Shown here: piece after piece, positions 37,535 to 49,217 of the stretch
Layout of the letters: each line of letters opens with the position of its first letter
Numbering within the stretch: the first letter of the stretch is position 1
NCBI GenBank assembly: GCA_947173485.1
Contig: CAMWFH010000005.1
Span: 62,001 to 126,000, forward strand
Length of the DNA: 64,000 bases
Reading direction: 5' to 3'
From: an uncultured Clostridia bacterium
Lineage (GTDB): Bacteria; Bacillota; Clostridia; Oscillospirales; Oscillospiraceae
Position numbers and translations under genes: made by a program
The notes under the pieces: model-generated
Database searches by the model: none
Seen by the model: the letters and a program-made list of their open reading frames with translations, nothing else
Told to the model about the DNA's origin: nothing

Positions 37535-38926
37535 TTAGCTCAGGATGCCGTCGCCGGGCATGGGGATGCCCAGATCCTCGGCGTACTTGCGCATCTTCAT
37601 GTACATCTCCACATACTCCTTGCAGGGAGTCAGGGTGGGGATATCGTACAGCTCGGGGAAGGTCAGGCCCTTCGGAGGATCGAACAGGTCGTTCTCGAAC
37701 TTGGGGATGACTTCTTTCACGATGCGGTTGGCATCGGCACGGGTCAGGCCCGCCGCGCCCTTGAACACGGAGGCGTTGTACCAGCACTCGATGGGGGTCA
37801 GGCCGTTCTTCTTCGAGCCGCCGGCGCTGCGGGGGCTGATGGTGAAGGTCTGGCCGGAGGCGGAGGCGGCGGTCATGCCCACGATGGATTCCAGGAAGAA
37901 CATCTCGGTCATGGGGCCGGCCACCTGGTTGATGGTCTTCATCTGGAGGATATTGCTGTTGCGGGTGATGGCCTGGGTCGCGATGGACTGGGTCCACACG
38001 CCGTGGCGGCCGCAGTTGCCCGCGTAGCGGATATCATAGGACGGGGAACCGGGCAGGCCAGCGCCGCACATGGGGTACTGGAGCAGGTCGGTGGCGATGG
38101 AGGCGATCGCGGTGGTCTCGGGACCGCCGGTGTAGCCGCCGATCATGGTGGGGGACTCGCTGCGGACCACGCCGCCCAGCTCATAGGCCACGATGCACTT
38201 GTGCAGGGTGGTGTAGTTGATCTTCAGGGACGCCGGGTTCAGGCACAGGCACAGCTGCGGCTGCTCATAGAGGTTGAAGGCGGCCAGGAAACCGAAATGG
38301 GTGCTGGCGCTGGACACCAGGGAGTTGCCCATGCCCACGCGCCCGGCCCGCCACTGGGCCTCCTTGCGCATATGGTACTCATAGATTCCGGCAAAGGTCT
38401 CATAGGGGGAGTCCGCCAGCAGGGGGCTGCCGAACACGGTATCCAGGGAGGGGCCTTCCTGCATATCGACCAGGCGGCTGCTGACGATGCCCTCCACCAG
38501 GGGGATGTACAGCTCCTCGCTCATCTGGATGGACAGCGGCGCGCAGAAGATGGGGGGACGCTTGTCCTCGGGACGGCGCGCCACCACATGGGTCTGCTCC
38601 GCGCCCTGGCCCACCACGAACTCGGGGGAGTTCTTCTTGAACTCGCGCTCCAACTCGTCGGCATCGATCTTGATCACCGACTCAGTGTCCGGGCAGAAGA
38701 AGCCCAGACGCAGGGCGGCCTCCCAGCCGGCCTTGAAGAAGCGGTCGGCCAGCTCGTCGTCGCAGTTGACGGGGTTATCAGGATCGCAGGTGCCCAGCAG
38801 GCCAAACTCCTTGGCCACTTCCTTCAGGGTCCTGGGGACGATCTTCTGATCCCACTCTTTTTCGGTGACGCGCTCGCCCAGGCGCGCCCGGTCTAATGTC
38901 CTCAGGATCTTTTTTTGCTTCTCCAT
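37535..38926 (-). CDS. MtmB-like methyltransferase lacking pyrrolysine
   Basis: Protein of 463 residues that I recognise as a homologue of monomethylamine methyltransferase MtmB (about 458 residues). Shared features are the N-terminal LDRARLGERVTEKEWD, DRFFKAGWEAALRLGFFC, AGRVGMG, GGYTGGPETTAIASIAT, QVAGPMTEMFFLESI and the C-terminal FPELYDIPTLTPCKEYVEMY. In archaeal MtmB the GMG motif is followed by the amber-encoded pyrrolysine at residue 202. Here that region reads GMGNSLVSS with Ser202, and the frame has no internal TAG. MtmB transfers a methyl group from an N-methyl compound to a corrinoid protein; the cognate corrinoid gene is 48 bp upstream in the same operon. The substrate is therefore probably not methylamine and is unknown. 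Confidence 0.82.
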   Translation of the reverse strand: MEKQKKILRTLDRARLGERVTEKEWDQKIVPRTLKEVAKEFGLLGTCDPDNPVNCDDELADRFFKAGWEAALRLGFFCPDTESVIKIDADELEREFKKNSPEFVVGQGAEQTHVVARRPEDKRPPIFCAPLSIQMSEELYIPLVEGIVSSRLVDMQEGPSLDTVFGSPLLADSPYETFAGIYEYHMRKEAQWRAGRVGMGNSLVSSASTHFGFLAAFNLYEQPQLCLCLNPASLKINYTTLHKCIVAYELGGVVRSESPTMIGGYTGGPETTAIASIATDLLQYPMCGAGLPGSPSYDIRYAGNCGRHGVWTQSIATQAITRNSNILQMKTINQVAGPMTEMFFLESIVGMTAASASGQTFTISPRSAGGSKKNGLTPIECWYNASVFKGAAGLTRADANRIVKEVIPKFENDLFDPPKGLTFPELYDIPTLTPCKEYVEMYMKMRKYAEDLGIPMPGDGILS

Positions 38927-38974: not shown

Positions 38975-39643
38975 TTACACTTCTACGACCAGGGGATCGC
39001 CGGGCTTGTGTACCATGAGCCGGTCGGCCATCTTCACAGACAGGCCGGCGGTGCGGGAATAGCCGTCCGCGCCGATCTTCTCGGCATACTCCGGGCCGAT
39101 GGGGCCGCCGCCTACGGCGATGCGGAACTTATCCCGCTTCCCCTCGTGGGTCAGACGGGTGATCAGCTCTTCCATGTAGTACTGGGATGTGGTGAGCAGG
39201 GAGGAGACCGCGATGATGTCCGCGCCCTCGGCCATAGCGGTGTCGATGAACTTGTTGGTGGGGACGTCGGTGCCCAGGTCCACCACCTCGTAGCCGTTGA
39301 TGGCCAGCTGGGTGGCCACCAGGCTCTTGCCGATGTCGTGGAGATCGCCCTTCGCGCAGCCGATCACGATCTTGCCCTTGAAGGCGCTCTTGCCGCCCTT
39401 GAGGTGGGGGCTGCACAGCTGGATCAGATGCTTCATGCACTCGCCGCCGATCATCAGCTCCGGCAGGAACGCCATCATGTTGTTGAAGTCATCGCCCAGA
39501 CGGTTCAGAGCGGCCACGCCGCCATCCTGGATGATCGCTTCAGGGTCGACGCCGTCAGCCAGCGCCTTTTCTACCAGTTCGACTACCAGATCCTCGTCGC
39601 CGTCATATACGGCTTCCTCGATTTGAGACAAATAGTCCGCCAT
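38975..39643 (-). CDS. Corrinoid (B12-binding) protein, MtmC/MtbC-like
   Basis: Methyl-carrier protein of 222 residues. An N-terminal helical cap (1-85) is followed by a B12-binding Rossmann domain with the cobalt-ligand motif DLHDIG (H102), SSLLTTSQ and GGGPIGPEYAEKIGADGY. The start at 39643 is set by ACAGGAGGT. It would accept the methyl group from the MtmB-like protein and hand it to an MtbA-like enzyme, for which 43321-44667 is the obvious candidate. First gene of a two-gene operon. Confidence 0.92.
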   Translation of the reverse strand: MADYLSQIEEAVYDGDEDLVVELVEKALADGVDPEAIIQDGGVAALNRLGDDFNNMMAFLPELMIGGECMKHLIQLCSPHLKGGKSAFKGKIVIGCAKGDLHDIGKSLVATQLAINGYEVVDLGTDVPTNKFIDTAMAEGADIIAVSSLLTTSQYYMEELITRLTHEGKRDKFRIAVGGGPIGPEYAEKIGADGYSRTAGLSVKMADRLMVHKPGDPLVVEV

Positions 39644-39716
39644 TTCAAAACCTCCTGTCGTTTTTGTTCGGGATATTCGGGCCTGCGCACAGTCAAGTCT
39701 TACAACTGCTGTACTA

Positions 39717-39808: not shown

Positions 39809-41272
39809 TCATTTCCCGTCCCCGGCGTTGGCCGCCTCATTGGCGACACGCTCCTCCTCCTCGGCCTCCAGGTCGATGGCGTCCTTGGGCAGCACCAGGT
39901 TCAGGATGGTGGCCACGATCGCAGCGGGCACCACGCCGGAGCCGCCAAAGATCAGGGACACGAAGGAGGGAAGGCCCGCCAGTACGGCGCTGTTGGCGCC
40001 GATGGCATACCCCACGCCGATGGCTACCGCCACGATAGTGAAGCTCCGGGAGGTGAAGCGGGACTTGGCGATGATCTGCATACCGCTGACGGAGATGGAG
40101 GCGAACAGCATGGCCGAAGCGCCGCCCAGCACGCTCTGGGGCATGATGGAGATCAGGGCCACCAGCTTAGGCAGGAAGCCGCAGATGACCAGGAAGATCG
40201 CGCCCGTAGAGATTCCGAAGCGGTTGATGGCCTTGGTCATCGCCACCATACCGGAGTTCTGGGTAGCGGAGGTGTTGGGCAGCACGCCGAAGAGCACGGC
40301 GAAGGAGGAGCCAACACCGTCGCACATGATGCCGCCCACCGTCTCACGGTTGGTGGGATTGCGGCCTAAGCCCCCGTTGGCCACGGCGGCCACGTTGCCC
40401 ATGGTGATGACCGTCGTCACCACGAACATGATCGTGATGGGCACGATGGCCTGGAGGTCGAATACCGGCTTTACGGGCAGGAGCTTGGGCAGGGAGAACC
40501 AGCTGGCCTCCGCCACCTTCCCCCAGTTCAGGACCCAGGACTTGGTGACCTCGGTGACCACGCCGGTGGCGGGGTCGGTATACAGAAAGGTCGTGGGCAG
40601 GACCAGTCCCATCAGCGCCGCCAGGATGTAGCCGATGATGATTCCGAAGAAGATGGCCGAATAGCTGGTGACGCCCTTGGTGAAGTGCTTGAAGCCCAGG
40701 ATCACGGCCAGCACCGCCAGGGCCAGGAGCACGTTCTCCACCGAGCCGAAGTCCTTCACGCCGGAGCCGCCGCCGAAGGAGTTGATGCCCACGTTCATCA
40801 GGGACAATCCGATGGTCAGCACCACCGTACCGATGACCACCGGCGGGAAGAAGCGCTGCATCGGCCGCAGGAACAAGCCCAGCACTGCCTCCACCAGGCC
40901 GCCGATCAGCGATGCGCCCAGCAGGGCGGCATAGGCGTTCAGCCCGCCGCCTACGGCCGGCACCACGCTGCCGAAGATCCCCAGGAAGCCGGCCGCCGTG
41001 ACCATAAAGATCGGCAGGCCGCTGCCCACCGGGCCCACGGGATATAGCTGCACGAAGGTGACCACGCCGGCCACCAGCATAGCGTTTTGCAGCAGCGCGA
41101 TCTGCAGCGCACCGCCGGCCTCGATGCCGCACAAGGTGGACAGTACCAGGATCGGCGTCAGGTTGCCCACGAACATGGCCAGCACATGCTGCATACCCAG
41201 TGGCAGCGCCTGGTGCATCGGGAGCCGCCCCTCCAGGGTATAGGGCGTCCCCATTTTCATTTCACGTTTCAT
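39809..41272 (-). CDS. NCS2-family nucleobase permease (xanthine/uracil type), copy 2
   Basis: Membrane transporter of 487 residues with about 14 hydrophobic segments. The NCS2 signature QNSGMVAMTKAINR and the N-terminal LPLGMQHVLAMFVGN are clear. Such proteins import purines or pyrimidines with H+ or Na+. GGAGGT precedes ATG 41272. It is second in an operon with a close paralogue. The next genes in the same direction are the corrinoid methyltransferase pair, so its cargo may be a methylated nucleobase (inference). Confidence 0.88.
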   Translation of the reverse strand: MKREMKMGTPYTLEGRLPMHQALPLGMQHVLAMFVGNLTPILVLSTLCGIEAGGALQIALLQNAMLVAGVVTFVQLYPVGPVGSGLPIFMVTAAGFLGIFGSVVPAVGGGLNAYAALLGASLIGGLVEAVLGLFLRPMQRFFPPVVIGTVVLTIGLSLMNVGINSFGGGSGVKDFGSVENVLLALAVLAVILGFKHFTKGVTSYSAIFFGIIIGYILAALMGLVLPTTFLYTDPATGVVTEVTKSWVLNWGKVAEASWFSLPKLLPVKPVFDLQAIVPITIMFVVTTVITMGNVAAVANGGLGRNPTNRETVGGIMCDGVGSSFAVLFGVLPNTSATQNSGMVAMTKAINRFGISTGAIFLVICGFLPKLVALISIMPQSVLGGASAMLFASISVSGMQIIAKSRFTSRSFTIVAVAIGVGYAIGANSAVLAGLPSFVSLIFGGSGVVPAAIVATILNLVLPKDAIDLEAEEEERVANEAANAGDGK

Positions 41273-41305: not shown

Positions 41306-42808
41306 CTACTTCACACTTGCTTGCTTTGCTTTTAGTTCCTTCTCGGCAGCGGCGCTGGCGGCCTCGTCGGCCAGACGCGCCCGCTCCTCCACCTCCAAGT
41401 CCTCCTTGCCCTTGGGCAGGACGGCGTTGAGCAGGATGGCCAGGAACGCGCAGGGGATGATGCCGGAGCCACCCACGACCAGGTTGATGAAATCGGGCAT
41501 ACCGCTCAGAGCCGCGGAATCGGCACCGATGCCATAGCCCAGGCCGATGGCGGCGGCAACGATCACATTGGCACGGGAGGTGAAGCCGCCCTTGGCGATC
41601 AGGTCGATACCGCCGCACAGGATCTGGCCGAACATCATGACCGTAGCGCCGCCCAGCACCGCATTGGGCATGATGGAGACGATGGCCACCAGCTTAGGCA
41701 GGAAGCCGCACAGGATCAGGAAAACGGCGCCGGTGGCCACGGACATCCGGTTGACCACCTTGGTCATGTTCACCAGGCCCACGTTCTGGCTGAAGGTGGT
41801 GTTGGGCAGCACGCCGAAGATGGCAGCACCGCTGGAGCCCAGGGCGTCGCAGAACAGACCGCCGGTCATCTCCTTGTTGGTGACATGACGGCCCAGACCC
41901 ACCTCGGTGATCGCGTTGATGCTGGCCATGCTCTCGATGGTCATGGAGATATAGATCAGGCAGATGGGCAGGATGGCCCGGATATCAAAGCGCAGATGTA
42001 CGGGCATCAGCTTCGGCAGGGACAGCCAGGAGGCCCCCGCCACGGCGCCCCAGTCCAGTGCCCAGGAGGCGGTGACGGCGTTGCCGGCGGCATCGATGAA
42101 GGTGGTGTCCATGGTGGCGGTCATGATGCCGGCCACCACATAGCCCACCGCGATGCCGATGAGCATACTGCAGTTCTGCACCATGCCCTTGCCCCACCGG
42201 TTGAGCACCAGGCTGACGGCAAAGACGATGAAGGCGATCGCCAGGTTCTGGGCGGAGCCGTAGTCGGGCACGCCGGAGCCACCGGCAAAGCTGTTGATGG
42301 CGATGGGGACCAGGGAGATGCCCACGGCCGTCAGCACCGTGCCGATGACCAGGGGTGGGAACAGGGGCTTCACCTTGTCGTAGACGCAGGCGATCACGAT
42401 CTCCACCAGGCCGCCGATGAGCGTTGCGCCCAGGATGGCCTCATAGGACGGGAGCCCGCCTCCCAGCAGGACGGAGACGCTGATGTAGACGCCGATGTAG
42501 CCGGCTGCGGTGCCCATCACGATGGGCAGGCGCGCACCGAATTTCCACACCGGGTAGAGCTGGAGCAGGGTGGTGAGACCGGCCACCATCATGGCATTTT
42601 GCAGGATGGTGACCATCAGCGGGCTGCCGGCCTCGATGCCGCAGAACGCGCAGACGATCAGCGGTGCGGTGATATTGCCCAGGAACATCGCCAGCACATG
42701 CTGCATACCCAAGGGGATCGCTGTCCGCATCGGCAGATAGCCGTCCAGGGTATAGGGGGAACCGAGCGTTTTTTCCTTTTTCAACTGTGTAGACCCTCCT
42801 AAATTCAT
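41306..42808 (-). CDS. NCS2-family nucleobase permease, copy 1
   Basis: Membrane transporter of 500 residues, paralogous to the next gene. Signature: SQNVGLVNMTKVVNR; N-terminal IPLGMQHVLAMFLGN. The start is ambiguous: ATG 42808 has GGAGG at suitable distance, but a TTG at 42784 also follows AGGAGG inside the frame. The C-terminus is a charged Ala/Glu/Lys tail. It is the first gene of a two-permease operon; no convincing promoter is seen upstream. Confidence 0.88.
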   Translation of the reverse strand: MNLGGSTQLKKEKTLGSPYTLDGYLPMRTAIPLGMQHVLAMFLGNITAPLIVCAFCGIEAGSPLMVTILQNAMMVAGLTTLLQLYPVWKFGARLPIVMGTAAGYIGVYISVSVLLGGGLPSYEAILGATLIGGLVEIVIACVYDKVKPLFPPLVIGTVLTAVGISLVPIAINSFAGGSGVPDYGSAQNLAIAFIVFAVSLVLNRWGKGMVQNCSMLIGIAVGYVVAGIMTATMDTTFIDAAGNAVTASWALDWGAVAGASWLSLPKLMPVHLRFDIRAILPICLIYISMTIESMASINAITEVGLGRHVTNKEMTGGLFCDALGSSGAAIFGVLPNTTFSQNVGLVNMTKVVNRMSVATGAVFLILCGFLPKLVAIVSIMPNAVLGGATVMMFGQILCGGIDLIAKGGFTSRANVIVAAAIGLGYGIGADSAALSGMPDFINLVVGGSGIIPCAFLAILLNAVLPKGKEDLEVEERARLADEAASAAAEKELKAKQASVK

Positions 42809-43203: not shown

Positions 43204-43219
43204 GCACAAAGATTTGTGC
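43204..43219. promoter_or_regulatory. Palindrome GCACAAA-GA-TTTGTGC in the leader
   Basis: A perfect 7-bp inverted repeat with a two-base centre, followed by a similar half site TTTGCGCAC (43222-43230). A candidate operator roughly 100 bp upstream of the start codon. Confidence 0.45.
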
Positions 43220-43320
43220 GGTTTGCGCACATAATCACCAGGGATACCATGCCAATACATGGCAAATACCCGGCAGATACCCAGAGGAGAACGATACCAT
43301 ATTTGGAGGAGGAAAAACAA

Positions 43321-44667
43321 ATGACCGGAAAAGAACTGATCCAAAAGACCTTGCGGCATGAGGAGACGCCCCGTGTGCCCTGGGTCCCCTTCACCGGCGT
43401 ACACGCCGGTAAGCTGAAGGGCTACACCGCCACCGAGGTCCTCAAGGACGGCGACAAGCTCTTCGACTCCCTGATGGAGGTCCACCGCCTGTATACCCCC
43501 GACGGTATGCCGGTAGCTTTTGACCTCCAGCTGGAGGCGGAGATCCTGGGCTGCAGCCTGATGTGGGCCGATGACAATCCCCCCAGCGTCACCTCTCACC
43601 CCCTGGAGGGCACCGATGAGATCCCCCAGCATCTGGTGGGCCCCAACGATGGGCGCATCCCCCTGGTGCTGGACGTGTGCCGCCGGCTGAAGAAGGCGGT
43701 GGGCGACGACACCGCCATCTACGGCCTGTTCTGCGGTCCCTTCACCCTGGCCTCCCACCTGCGGGGCACGAAGCTGTTCATGGGCATGAAGAAGGACCCG
43801 GCCTATGTGGAGGCCCTGATGGACTACACCTGCCGGGTCGGCATGGCCATGGTGGATATGTACGCCGAGGCCGGCGCCGATGTCATCGCCCCGGTGGATC
43901 CCCTGGTGTCCCAGATCTCTCCCAAGCACTTCGAGGCCTACCTCACCAAGGTCTACACCAAGCTCTTCGATCATATCCGCGAGAAGGGGCTCCAGTCCGC
44001 CTTCTTCGTCTGCGGCAACGCCATGCGCAACCTGGACCTGATGTGCCAGACCAAGCCCGACAGCCTGTCCATCGATGAGAACATCCCCATGAAGGACGCC
44101 AAGGCCATCACCGACAAGTACAACATCGCCATCGGCGGCAACATCCCCCTGACCACGACCATGCTCTTCGGCAACCAGCAGGACAACATGAAGTTCGTGG
44201 TGGATATGATCGACAGCGTGGACCGGCGCAACCTGATCGTTTCCCCCGGCTGCGATATGCCCTATGATATCCCCATCGAGAACACCATCGCTGCCGTGCA
44301 GGCCGTCCACGATGTGGATAAGTATCGGGAGTTGCTGCGGGACTACGAGGGCGGTGCCGATGATGTGGAGATCGAGCTGCCCGACTACGAGCATCTGGAG
44401 CGCCCCCTGGTGGAGGCCTTCACCCTGGATTCCATCGCCTGCGCCGCCTGCACCTATATGTGGGCCTCCGCCTGCGATGCCAAGGAGGCCTATGGCGACA
44501 AGATCGATGTGGTCGAGTACAAGTACACCACCCGCGAAGGCGTGGCCCGCTGCAAGAAGATGGGCGTGAAGAACCTGCCCTCCCTGTATATCAACGGCAA
44601 GCTCTACTATGCCTCCATCATCCCCAGCCGGGACGAGTTCTTCGCTGAGATCGATAAGCTCCTGTAA
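43321..44667 (+). CDS. MtbA/UroD-like methyltransferase fused to a thioredoxin-like domain
   Basis: Protein of 448 residues. Residues 1-345 are a uroporphyrinogen-decarboxylase-fold domain of the methylcobamide:CoM methyltransferase type. C231 (FVCGN) and C311 (SPGCDMP) match the zinc cysteines of the HxC...C motif, but the usual His is Phe229. Residues 363-448 are a thioredoxin-like domain with CAAC (374-377) and the cis-Pro segment NLPSLYINGKLYY. The start at 43321 follows GGAGGAGG; a reading from 43216 would add an untypical leader peptide. Likely role: demethylation of the corrinoid protein encoded at 38975, passing the methyl group to a thiol or folate acceptor (inference). It is divergent from the permease operon. 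Confidence 0.82.
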   Translation: MTGKELIQKTLRHEETPRVPWVPFTGVHAGKLKGYTATEVLKDGDKLFDSLMEVHRLYTPDGMPVAFDLQLEAEILGCSLMWADDNPPSVTSHPLEGTDEIPQHLVGPNDGRIPLVLDVCRRLKKAVGDDTAIYGLFCGPFTLASHLRGTKLFMGMKKDPAYVEALMDYTCRVGMAMVDMYAEAGADVIAPVDPLVSQISPKHFEAYLTKVYTKLFDHIREKGLQSAFFVCGNAMRNLDLMCQTKPDSLSIDENIPMKDAKAITDKYNIAIGGNIPLTTTMLFGNQQDNMKFVVDMIDSVDRRNLIVSPGCDMPYDIPIENTIAAVQAVHDVDKYRELLRDYEGGADDVEIELPDYEHLERPLVEAFTLDSIACAACTYMWASACDAKEAYGDKIDVVEYKYTTREGVARCKKMGVKNLPSLYINGKLYYASIIPSRDEFFAEIDKLL

Positions 44668-44748: not shown

Positions 44749-45678
44749 TCACATGAGGGGGCAGGGGACATGGAAGGCCTGCTCCCAGGCGGTCTCCAGC
44801 TCCTGGTCGAAGTAGTCGGAGCCCTTGCCGATCAGGACCAGGGTCCCCTGGGGCATATGCTCCGGGGCGGGGGCCAGCTCCAGCTGGGAGCAGACGCCGT
44901 CTACGAACAGCGTCCCCTCCTCTGTCACCAGCGTGCCCTTGATCCGCAGGGTCAGCGGGGCGATGGCCTGGCAGAACTGCCGGACCGCCTCCTGCCCCCC
45001 TTGGAGCGGGGGCGTCTCCAGGGTGTAGACCGCCGGACGGTTCCAGGGGGTGTTGCTGGAGTCGCCGGACCGGCCGTGGTTGACCAGGCCCTCCAGCAGC
45101 TCCGCCGGCACATCGGAGTAGGTGGTGCGGTAGACGGCGGCCTCTGGATTGAAGGTCCGCACGGACTGCTGGATCTCCTGGACCTGCTCCTCAGAGACCA
45201 GATCGGTCTTGTTGAGCACGATCAGATCCGCCGTAGCCACCTGGTTCTGGAGGGGCAGCAGCATATCCAGATAGTCCAGGACCGTGGTGCAGTCCACCAG
45301 GCACACCGCGCCCCGGTAGTCGTAGGGCCTGGGGAGATAGGGCGCCAGCCGCTCCAGCACCGCCGGCATAGAGGCCGGGTCGGCCATACCGGAGGCTTCG
45401 ATCAGCAATAGGTCGATGGGGGTGTCGCTGAAGGCCTTCAGGGTCTTGACGAAGCTGTCCTTCAGGCAGGCGCAGAAGATCGAGCCGTTGTTCAGCTCCG
45501 CCATCTGGATGCCATTCCGCTGGAGCAGGGCCCCATCGATGCCCACGCTGCCAAATTCGTTCACCAAAAGGCCAGTCTTCCGGTCCGCGAGGCGCTCCAG
45601 CAGGCGGCGCAGGAAGGTCGTCTTGCCGGCGCCCAGAAAGCCGCTGACCAGATAGAGGGCGATAGGCTGTTGTGTCAT
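44749..45678 (-). CDS. G3E-family GTPase (CobW/COG0523-type)
   Basis: Metal-chaperone-like GTPase of 309 residues. Walker A is GFLGAGKTT (13-21), NKTD gives the guanine-specificity motif, and the metal site CxCC appears as C69-A-C71-L, with the third Cys missing. The CobW C-terminal domain follows. The start at 45678 is set by GGAGGA. It lies downstream of a PadR regulator with a palindrome in between, and is convergent with the MtbA-like gene. It may deliver zinc or cobalt to a nearby metalloenzyme, but family members are diverse. Confidence 0.85.
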   Translation of the reverse strand: MTQQPIALYLVSGFLGAGKTTFLRRLLERLADRKTGLLVNEFGSVGIDGALLQRNGIQMAELNNGSIFCACLKDSFVKTLKAFSDTPIDLLLIEASGMADPASMPAVLERLAPYLPRPYDYRGAVCLVDCTTVLDYLDMLLPLQNQVATADLIVLNKTDLVSEEQVQEIQQSVRTFNPEAAVYRTTYSDVPAELLEGLVNHGRSGDSSNTPWNRPAVYTLETPPLQGGQEAVRQFCQAIAPLTLRIKGTLVTEEGTLFVDGVCSQLELAPAPEHMPQGTLVLIGKGSDYFDQELETAWEQAFHVPCPLM

Positions 45679-45729
45679 AGTGATCCTCCTTTTGGCACAG
45701 GCCCCGCCTGTGCGCTGTGTGTCTCTCAT

Positions 45730-46159: not shown

Positions 46160-46399
46160 TCAGGTCAGATGCGGGGGCTTCCAGCCGGTCTTGTCCCCGT
46201 TGTAGGTGATGGCCCCCTTGGGGCAGAGGTCGCCGCAGCCGTGACAGAAGTCCACGCAGTTCCCTGGCCTGGTCACTACGGGCCGGGGAGCCAGCTGCGG
46301 GTCGTAGGCGAAGTGCCCTCCCTCCACGCACAGCTTGATGCACTGGCCGCACTGGACGCAGCGCTCCTCATTGATGATTGGATACCAAGTCCTTCCCAT
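46160..46399 (-). CDS. Small ferredoxin-like 4Fe-4S protein
   Basis: Protein of 79 residues. CVQCGQCIKLC and then CVDFCHGCGDLCPKGAI fit two iron-sulfur clusters, the second with altered spacing. The start at 46399 follows GGAGGA; a longer reading from 46438 would add 13 residues. It lies between an ABC permease gene and a PadR gene in one operon, which is an unusual place for a ferredoxin. Confidence 0.8.
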   Translation of the reverse strand: MGRTWYPIINEERCVQCGQCIKLCVEGGHFAYDPQLAPRPVVTRPGNCVDFCHGCGDLCPKGAITYNGDKTGWKPPHLT

Positions 46400-46450
46400 G
46401 ATCGTTCTCCTCCATTCTTTATCATGAACTCTCCCCACTTGGGAAGATGC

Positions 46451-47365
46451 TCACTGCCATCGAATCAAATGCCCCTGGAGCCATGTGACCGCCGCGCTCA
46501 GGACCGTCACCACCGCCCCGATCACCAGGATCCCCGCTACGGCGTGGGCATAGTTGGCGTAGGCGATGCTGTTCTGCACATAGTAGCCCATCCCGTGGGT
46601 CGCCCCCATCAGCTCCGCGAAATTCAGCATCAGCAGGGAGGTGGTCATGGACACCTTCAGTCCCGACACGATCCCCGGCAGCACATAGGGCAGCAGGATG
46701 CGGAAGAGCATCACCGGTGTGGAGGGCTCCAGGGTCCGGGCCGCGTCCAGGATCTGGGGCTCTATAGCGCCTACCCGGTTGATGGTGGTCAAAAAGGTGG
46801 GCCAGAACACCCCCAGCACGATGACCAGCATGGACGCGCTCCGAAAGGAGGGCATCAGCGCCACCAGGTAGGGGGAGATGACCACCGGCGGGATGGGGGC
46901 CATCACATTGGCGATGGGATAGGTCACCCGCCGCAGCCTGGGCAGCCAGGCGCAGGGCAGGCCCAGGAGCACTGCCAGCACCAGCCCCGTCGTGAAGCCC
47001 GCGGCCAGCAGGCCCATGGAATAGCCGATGTTCAGCAGCATCACCCGCCATTGGAGGCGGAACGTGTGGAACACGTTCTCCGGCGGGGGGACCAGCACCG
47101 GGTGGGCGATGTTGCACACCGGGGCCGCCAGCTCCCAGGCCAGCAGCAGCGCCCACACCAGGGCGATGATATCATAGGCGCCCGTCTCCCGTCCCCTTGC
47201 CCTCCTGGCCGCGGCCAGGAAAGCGCCCTCGAACAGGGCGAGCCCCACCAGCAGCGCGGTCGCGCTCTCCACGTTCGGGCGGCTCTTGGGCAGGCACACG
47301 ATGGCGTATACCAGCGCCGCCAGCAGCAGGTGGGGCAGGAGGAGCCGCCGCGTCTCAGCACGCAT
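46451..47365 (-). CDS. ABC transporter permease (TauC/SsuC-like)
   Basis: Inner-membrane permease of 304 residues with about eight helices, including the EAA-type loop DAARTLEPSTPVMLFRILLPYVLPGI. This is the type used by sulfonate, nitrate, taurine and pyrimidine importers. It overlaps the ATPase gene by 11 nt. The two N-terminal helices (8-60) are additional to the core domain. Confidence 0.85.
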   Translation of the reverse strand: MRAETRRLLLPHLLLAALVYAIVCLPKSRPNVESATALLVGLALFEGAFLAAARRARGRETGAYDIIALVWALLLAWELAAPVCNIAHPVLVPPPENVFHTFRLQWRVMLLNIGYSMGLLAAGFTTGLVLAVLLGLPCAWLPRLRRVTYPIANVMAPIPPVVISPYLVALMPSFRSASMLVIVLGVFWPTFLTTINRVGAIEPQILDAARTLEPSTPVMLFRILLPYVLPGIVSGLKVSMTTSLLMLNFAELMGATHGMGYYVQNSIAYANYAHAVAGILVIGAVVTVLSAAVTWLQGHLIRWQ

Positions 47366-48101
47366 AGCGCTGTTCCGCTTCCCGGTAGAAGAGCGCCATC
47401 AGCTCCCGCTCCAGGCCCTCCCGGTCCTCCGGCGCGGGCAGGTCGGCGGCGATCTGTCCCGGCGACATATAGAGGATGCGGCTGGCCAGGCTGGCCGCGT
47501 CCCGCAGGTCGTGGGTGATGAGGACGACGGTCTTTTTCCGTCCGCCCCGGGCCCAAAGTGCGTGGAGCAGCCCTTGCAGCTCCTGGCGGATCCGGGCGTC
47601 CAGCGCGGAGAAGGGCTCATCCAGGAGCAGTATCTCCGCGTCTACCGCCAGGGCCCGGGCGATGGCCACCCGCTGGCACATCCCGCCGGACATCTGCCGC
47701 GGATAGAGGGCCGCCGCGTCCAGCATATCCACCTCTTCCAGGTACCGGTCCGCCGCCAGCCGGGCCTCCCGGCGGCTCAGGCGCTTGTGGGCCTGCCGCA
47801 GGCCGAAGCAGACGTTCTCTCGCGCCGTCATCCAGGGGAACAGCGTGCTGCTCTGAAAGACCACCGCCCGGTCCAGCCCCGGCCCGGTCACGGGCCGCCC
47901 GTCTATACGGATCTGCCCCTGGCTGGGCAGCTGCAAGCCCGCCAGCAGCCGGAGCAGGGTGGTCTTCCCGCAGCCGGACTTGCCCAGGACGCAGACGAAC
48001 TCGCCGTCGCCGATGGTGACGCTGATGTCCCGCAGGGCCTGGAAGGCGCTGTCGTGCCGGTGGTAGCAGAAGGAGACGTGCTCCAGCTCGATGGATGCCA
48101 T
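47355..48101 (-). CDS. ABC transporter ATPase (TauB/SsuB-like)
   Basis: ATP-binding subunit of 248 residues. Walker A is GKSGCGKTT, the signature MSGGMCQRVAIARAL, Walker B ILLLDEPFSALD and the H-loop LITHD. AGAGGAG precedes the start. It lies between the receptor and permease genes and forms a complete importer with them. Confidence 0.9.
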   Translation of the reverse strand: MASIELEHVSFCYHRHDSAFQALRDISVTIGDGEFVCVLGKSGCGKTTLLRLLAGLQLPSQGQIRIDGRPVTGPGLDRAVVFQSSTLFPWMTARENVCFGLRQAHKRLSRREARLAADRYLEEVDMLDAAALYPRQMSGGMCQRVAIARALAVDAEILLLDEPFSALDARIRQELQGLLHALWARGGRKKTVVLITHDLRDAASLASRILYMSPGQIAADLPAPEDREGLERELMALFYREAEQRYAC

Positions 48102-48116
48102 GCCGTATCTCCTCTC

Positions 48117-49217
48117 TCAGCTGTTATGCGCCTGGAAGTAGTCTGTCAGCTCCTGCCAGACGGCCCGGTCCGGCTCCCGCTGGGCCAGGCCCTCCAGCGC
48201 CGTCTGGTAGACATCGGTCACCACATACTGGTCCCAGTCGATGCCCTCTCCGTTCTGGATGCCGCCGATGTTGGCCATGGCCTCATAGAAGTGGACGCAG
48301 GCATCCTTATCCGGGTCTAAGGACAGCCGCATCACCGGCGTATAATCCGCCGTGCCATAGATCTGTCCTCGGAGGAAGTCCCGGTCCTCACCGGAATAGC
48401 TCTCCAAAATGTCCAGCGTCTCCTCCGGGTGTTCCTGGCTGTAGGCATAGCCCCGGAGGGCCGCGGTCTCGAACCGGACCAGCGCGTCAAAATTCGTCTC
48501 ATAGGTGGTCAGGTTGCACGTCTGGCGGCAGCATGGATAGGTCTCCACGAAGTCCCGCACCGCCGCGACCACGTCCACCCCGTACCGATCGGCATAGTAG
48601 CCCAGGCTGGCGTTGGTGATGCACAGGTCGTACTCCCCCTTCCGGCAGCCCTCGATGGCGGTGTTGGAATCGTTGACATAGAGGAAGCTCACGTCCGCCC
48701 CGCTCCCGGGCTCGCCGATGGTGTACCCCTGGCGGAGCAGATAGTCCTTCAGCACCATCTGGCCTGTTTCCGGCATCTGGCAGGCGATGGTCAGCCCCAC
48801 CAGGTCCTCTGCGGAGGAGATGGTCAGGTCCCGGTCCTTGGCCGCCATGATCTCCGAGCCCTCGCCGGCCGTGCCGCCAAAGACCCGCAGGGTGGTCGTC
48901 CCCTGGCTGATGAAGGTGGCGGCGGCGGTGCTGCTGAATAAGTATACATCCAGGTCCCCGGTGGAGACGGCCAGATAGGCATCGTTCATGCTGGACACCT
49001 TCTGGAACTCCACCGCGACCCCTTCCTCCTCAAAGTAGCCCAGTGCCTGGGCTGTCAGGACCCCCACCGGCTTGATGGACGTGCCCAGCAGGCCCACCTG
49101 GAGCGTGGCTGGCTCCTGCGCCGTCTGGCCTTCTGTACCGCCGTCCGTGTCACCGTCCGTGCCGCAGGCAGCCAGGACCAATAGGAGCAAAAGTGCCGGC
49201 AAGATCTTCTTCCACAT
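48117..49217 (-). CDS. NMT1/TauA-type substrate-binding lipoprotein
   Basis: Extracytoplasmic receptor of 366 residues. The signal peptide ends in lipobox LAAC (Cys18), followed by a Gly/Asp/Thr linker. It carries the NMT1/SsuA pattern LQVGLLGTSIKPVGVLTAQALGYFEEEGVAVEFQ. Ligands of the family include sulfonates, nitrate, thiamine pyrimidines and riboflavin; this one cannot be assigned. Four Cys in the middle (YPCCRQTCN and others) are unusual. First gene of the operon, with a good promoter and a palindromic operator. Confidence 0.85.
   Translation of the reverse strand: MWKKILPALLLLLVLAACGTDGDTDGGTEGQTAQEPATLQVGLLGTSIKPVGVLTAQALGYFEEEGVAVEFQKVSSMNDAYLAVSTGDLDVYLFSSTAAATFISQGTTTLRVFGGTAGEGSEIMAAKDRDLTISSAEDLVGLTIACQMPETGQMVLKDYLLRQGYTIGEPGSGADVSFLYVNDSNTAIEGCRKGEYDLCITNASLGYYADRYGVDVVAAVRDFVETYPCCRQTCNLTTYETNFDALVRFETAALRGYAYSQEHPEETLDILESYSGEDRDFLRGQIYGTADYTPVMRLSLDPDKDACVHFYEAMANIGGIQNGEGIDWDQYVVTDVYQTALEGLAQREPDRAVWQELTDYFQAHNS

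Follow-up and report, generated by a model that had tools for sequence, protein, structure and literature searches.

Pyrrolysine-free MtmB homologues among purine genes: a possible role in corrinoid-dependent N-demethylation

MtmB relies on pyrrolysine (Pyl) to activate an amine whose leaving group is poor. What an MtmB-family protein might do once this residue is gone is the question raised by a gene in a 64,000-nucleotide stretch (henceforth termed the window) from the genome of an uncultured Clostridia bacterium of the Oscillospiraceae. The gene, at 37535..38926 on the reverse strand, encodes 463 amino acids. An original prediction, made from the sequence alone, had placed a serine at the Pyl position of an MtmB homologue and proposed another chemistry or substrate, in parallel to non-Pyl members of the MttB family. 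Here, we compare this protein with its relatives and their gene neighbourhoods and propose that it may take part in the demethylation of purines.

An MtmB homologue without pyrrolysine

The window protein matches the Pfam MtmB family (PF05369) and no other Pfam family, covering positions 3-450 of 450 with 236 bits (cut-off 25), and in a phmmer search its alignment with MtmB of M. barkeri (1L2Q/1TV2; E ~1e-48) extends over the full length, from residue 11 to 454, in agreement with the predicted homology at the sequence level. In this alignment, GMG-N-S of the window protein lies over M. barkeri GMG-V-X (X = Pyl202), gap-free nearby. A 27-sequence alignment that includes three TAG-containing bacterial MtmB sequences (L009, L010, L027) agrees, again placing Ser202 in the Pyl column, as had been read by eye. 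The residue is encoded by a TCC codon (38321..38323, reverse strand), and the open reading frame is stop-free inside, with no in-frame TAG at position 202. A search of the window's genome (G000) for PylS (TIGR02367), the sole pyl gene searched, gave no match; among 15 carrier genomes, PylS scores above cut-off in G771, G772 and G779 only, exactly those with a TAG-containing MtmB. The predicted absence of Pyl is thus borne out by the codon and by the PylS part of the suggested genome check. Compared with its 95%-identical orthologue in L011, the window gene has a dN of 0.030 and a dS of 0.469, which indicates an intact gene under purifying selection.

Like Pyl MtmB (PDB 1L2Q, 1NTH, 1TV2), the window protein matches the family over its full length (~28% identity), has an adjacent corrinoid protein, and carries GRxGMG before position 202. 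Unlike Pyl MtmB, it lacks Pyl, resides in a genome without PylS, has Glu229, Gln333 and Tyr335 replaced, and occurs in a purine gene context. Loss of Pyl together with a new substrate has a conceptual parallel in the non-Pyl MttB superfamily (MtgB, MtpB, MtcB, MtyB; COG5598), which differs in belonging to another Pfam family; a Pfam search found no MttB (PF06253) in the window's genome. A non-methylamine substrate, suggested from this parallel, remains the best inference.

The novelty that the original prediction saw in a non-Pyl MtmB as such did not hold, MtqB (PMC13044021) and an MtmB of strain DCMF (PMC9768040) having already been published. MtqB of Methanococcoides methylutens Q3c demethylates tetramethylammonium and choline, and the remaining non-Pyl MtmB proteins are marked as of unknown function in the same 2026 report (PMC13044021). 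MtqB and the window protein are both non-Pyl MtmB homologues with a cognate corrinoid protein; from its published description, MtqB differs from the two clades introduced below in being archaeal, close to the Pyl MtmB clade, and in acting on quaternary amines. The DCMF protein, Ga0180325_111810, is the most induced protein on dichloromethane and 30.32% identical to a D. formicoaceticum homologue (PMC9768040), and it shares with the window protein that both are non-Pyl MtmB homologues in anaerobic bacteria. Because our sequences L061_9752 and L102 are likewise 30.32% identical, Ga0180325_111810 is probably L061_9752, if, as we infer, the genome of L102 is that of D. formicoaceticum. This gene, at position 9752 of L061 (G779:C1:1864500-1884400), has a clade B gene ~7 kb away and belongs to another lineage than clades A and B, so we rejected its induction as expression evidence for them.

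Two clades and their pocket residues

Relatives were obtained mostly from a scan of GTDB species genomes, which returned 18 loci and, being built on clade A and B sequence patterns, is biased towards near relatives. Within the window's own order and class, a search with the window protein recovered no more than a single distant homologue and two genes with TAG; a scan of viral contigs found none. Most of the 18 loci fall into two groups. Clade A comprises the window gene's orthologues (53-95% identity). The window's genome also has a second copy (L006:9437-10882), whose product is 44% identical to the window protein, and the orthologues of that copy make up clade B. In a tree of 52 rows, the 28 A and B proteins form one clade with 100/100 support, set on a branch of ~1 change per site and apart from both the Pyl clade (also 100/100) and the other non-Pyl lineages, so that the phylogeny proposed as a check separates the window protein from Pyl members.

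The two clades co-occur: 11 of 12 clade A genomes also carry a clade B gene, counting the more divergent copies of DCMF. An A-like gene stands alone in G774, and B occurs without A in G775, G776 and G778. Carriers span Oscillospiraceae, Lachnospiraceae, Coriobacteriales, Treponema and other Spirochaetaceae (Bacillota, Coriobacteriales, Spirochaetota), which suggests horizontal spread. Two further loci are recorded here as side observations. L071 (G767:C131), a short contig on which no purine neighbours could be recognised, holds a third, B-like MtmB homologue of its genome with 40% identity to B, and in L008 a distant non-Pyl MtmB adjoins a 527-aa membrane-type protein (L008:5041-6624) for which Pfam gave no match at E 0.01.

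Residue 202 itself varies. In clade A (n=12) it is Ser in four proteins, Ala in three, Pro and Met in two each, and Thr in one, flanked by invariant Asn201 and Leu203; in clade B it is Thr in 13 and Val in one. In the MtmB structures, Glu229, Glu259, Gln333 and Tyr335 are residues around Pyl. The alignment shows Glu229, Gln333 and Tyr335 to be invariant in TAG-containing MtmB and replaced in A and B, whereas the Glu259 position still holds Glu in most A proteins and Gly in B. Both clades share an unvarying Lys (column 332) and Asn (column 335), which are Lys330 and Asn333 in the numbering of the window protein. Pyl and most of its contacts have thus been lost, and the predicted change relative to Pyl MtmB is a remodelling of the whole pocket under purifying selection. 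A serine-dependent MtmB, in which Ser202 itself stands in for Pyl chemistry, would account for the Ser in the Pyl column of the window protein and three orthologues, yet in the remaining clade A proteins this position, between invariant neighbours, is taken by Ala, Pro, Met or Thr, which makes this reading extremely improbable. With S, A, P, M or T at one position of 12 orthologues, serine is no meaningful replacement, and we rejected Ser202 as a catalytic substitute; the emphasis that the original prediction laid on serine shifts to the pocket as a whole.

Corrinoid proteins and transporters at the two MtmB loci

The window MtmB gene lies downstream of two NCS2 transporter genes and a corrinoid protein gene, all on the same strand. 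The cognate corrinoid protein (38975..39646, reverse strand; 223 aa), encoded 48 bases upstream of the MtmB gene and in the same direction, contains Pfam domains B12-binding_2 (PF02607) and B12-binding (PF02310) and matches an NCBIfam pyl_corrinoid/MtgC-like model under cut-off. All clade A genes examined have an orthologue of it upstream. One transporter of the apparent operon, a xanthine permease-family protein (39809..41272, reverse strand), matches Xan_ur_permease in Pfam with 210 bits and TIGR03173 pbuX with 313 bits, under the cut-off of 414. The other (41306..42808, reverse strand), assigned to the same family by Pfam and NCBIfam matches, is 68-72% identical to NCS2 proteins at four other A/B loci (L006, L011, L012, L023) and 48% identical to a separate NCS2 copy on C10 of the same genome. 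Permeases are the only purine-type genes in the window operon itself, which holds no purine enzymes.

Further genes of the window also have counterparts near A or B. At 43216..44667 on the forward strand, an MtaA/CmuA-like (URO-D) protein whose C-terminal part weakly matches a thioredoxin-like domain is a candidate second methyltransferase; in L020, L021 and L026, relatives with 66-74% identity are encoded beside clade B genes. The window's candidate has FFVCGN (FxCG) where the MtaA relatives of this set have HICG (HxCG), a substitution that makes its role as second methyltransferase uncertain. As a separate observation, L018, L020 and L021 likewise carry the FFVCGN variant close to a clade A or B gene. 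A CobW-family GTPase (44749..45729, reverse strand) is an accessory candidate; homologues of it lie close to the B genes of L020, L021, L025 and L026. At 46160..49217 on the reverse strand follow a ferredoxin-like open reading frame and an NMT1/THI5-type ABC transporter (permease, ATPase, binding protein). Two clade B loci, L021 and L026, have homologues of the permease, and L021 also has one of the binding protein; their link to the methyl-transfer system is tentative.

The B paralogue, too, has its corrinoid protein gene immediately upstream (L006:10882-11586). Nearby are genes for a RACo-type activator, DUF1638, an NCS2 permease, xanthine-dehydrogenase-type Mo and FAD subunits, an FeS protein and an 8-oxoguanine-deaminase-like protein. 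Of a putative three-component system, the genome encodes corrinoid proteins beside both MtmB copies and a RACo homologue at the B locus. The genome holds five NCS2 genes, three of them at the two MtmB loci; this proportion (binomial ~7e-6) and the recurrence of the pattern in other genomes make chance closeness of permeases to MtmB genes unlikely. Away from these loci, the genome also encodes SsnA and YgfK. It further has two copies of acetyl-CoA synthase (CdhC; G000:C9:45848-46309 and C3:91980-92435), for which the 14 other carrier genomes gave matches in G768 and G779 only.

A reading in which the MtmB-fold protein is non-catalytic or repurposed, for example as a corrinoid-linked sensor or chaperone, draws on the replacement of much of the known MtmB active site. 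The corrinoid proteins, activator and second-methyltransferase-like genes at A/B loci fit a working methyl transfer instead, and the strong purifying selection on the window gene likewise speaks against such a role, which we consider very unlikely.

Purine context and proposed function

The strongest clue, which the original prediction missed while being right about homology and Pyl loss and probably about a different substrate, is the company that A and B genes keep. We scored NCS2 permeases, xanthine-dehydrogenase subunits, guanine and 8-oxoguanine deaminases, PnrA-type transporters, PucR, SsnA and YgfK as purine genes. At least one lies within 10 kb of 25 of the 28 superclade genes. For TAG-containing MtmB genes the count is 0/8, and for the remaining non-Pyl ones it is 3/15 (Fisher p 3e-8, a value that is indicative only and overstates independence because the sequences are kin). 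Where at least 4 kb were available on both sides, purine neighbours were found at 18/18 superclade loci versus 2/17 others. The three superclade genes without a purine neighbour (L015, L019, L071) are all on short or truncated contigs. Recurring at A/B loci are guanine deaminase, 8-oxoguanine deaminase-like amidohydrolases, SsnA, NCS2, xanthine-dehydrogenase subunits, PucR, Bmp/PnrA transporters and YgfK. In L016, a single strand carries B, an 8-oxoguanine deaminase-like gene, a Mo-hydroxylase, an amidohydrolase, guanine deaminase and then A, followed by two PALP (YgeX-like) genes, SsnA, YgfK and an XdhD-like gene. This arrangement matches the reductive urate cluster XdhD-YgfK-SsnA-HyuA-YgeX (PMC12507026) in the YgfK, SsnA, PALP and XdhD-like genes beside A and B, and the cluster's SsnA and YgfK are those also encoded in the window's genome; the text of PMC12507026 makes no mention of corrinoid, methyltransferase or caffeine. 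It is this purine context, not the non-Pyl MtmB as such, that looks new.

The presence of purine transport and breakdown genes around A and B suggests methylated purines, such as methylxanthines and methylguanines, as substrates. We therefore favour, with moderate confidence, the reading that the window protein is the methyltransferase of a three-part corrinoid system that would N-demethylate purines before anaerobic purine catabolism. An NCS2 permease would bring the methylated purine into the cell, where the MtmB-fold protein (MT1) may position it above the corrinoid, in its Co(I) state, that the neighbouring B12 protein carries. The Co(I) would then accept the N-methyl group with the purine as leaving group, and a second methyltransferase would hand the methyl group on, probably to tetrahydrofolate. 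The demethylated purine could enter anaerobic purine or urate catabolism, with the RACo-like activator presumably reducing the corrinoid. Compared with ammonia, a purine leaves far more readily, and substrates of the 7-methylguanine type can carry a positive charge, so that A and B may be able to do without Pyl. The paralogues probably differ in the methyl position or the purine acted on.

Two alternatives name other substrates. The window protein might be a quaternary-amine or choline methyltransferase like MtqB, with the purine genes incidental, in line with the substrates of the sole non-Pyl MtmB of demonstrated function (PMC13044021). Against this stand the purine-type neighbours at the window gene and at the A/B loci examined, and also the published position of MtqB near Pyl MtmB (PMC13044021), to be set against the long A+B branch of a tree whose rows do not include MtqB; we regard an MtqB-like role as improbable. 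Co-localisation points to a pathway context and not to a substrate, and another N-methyl compound of purine-rich settings is possible, such as a methylurea, a methylated pyrimidine or a compound of the N-methylhydantoin/creatinine type, in which case the purine genes would help the cell to scavenge nitrogen in general. The families of NCS2 carriers and of amidohydrolases are broad, and the deaminase matches at A/B loci mostly fall under equivalog cut-offs. The recurrence of independent purine-specific families (guanine deaminase, xanthine-dehydrogenase subunits, PucR, SsnA, YgfK) nevertheless renders this alternative rather unlikely.

Extending the favoured purine demethylation to both clades, we tentatively propose, as a possibility still open to considerable doubt, that A and B form a Pyl-free corrinoid N-demethylase pair of differing regiospecificity. 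The pair would act on methylated purines (caffeine-type compounds or methylated RNA bases) as a horizontally spread cassette feeding anaerobic urate and purine catabolism and the one-carbon pool, a route that would be undescribed. The CC-licensed PMC literature that we searched yielded no report of corrinoid-dependent purine or methylxanthine demethylation and no link of the MtmB family or corrinoid proteins to purine demethylation. For some members of the non-Pyl MtmB family, the proposal names a specific class of substrates that can be tested. If it is true, anaerobic purine N-demethylation would have its first enzymes in A and B, the papers searched having yielded none, and the two clades would bear on the turnover of caffeine, theobromine and methylated RNA bases in guts and sediments. 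The notion that Pyl loss goes with a better leaving group would then extend from quaternary amines to aromatic N-methyl compounds.

Outside the superclade, the non-Pyl MtmB genes of L062 and L063 have one purine-type neighbour each. In L063 (G775:C72), the MtmB gene at 1558 represents a separate non-Pyl lineage and adjoins an 8-oxoguanine deaminase-like gene (54%); this lineage is possibly a third purine-linked group.
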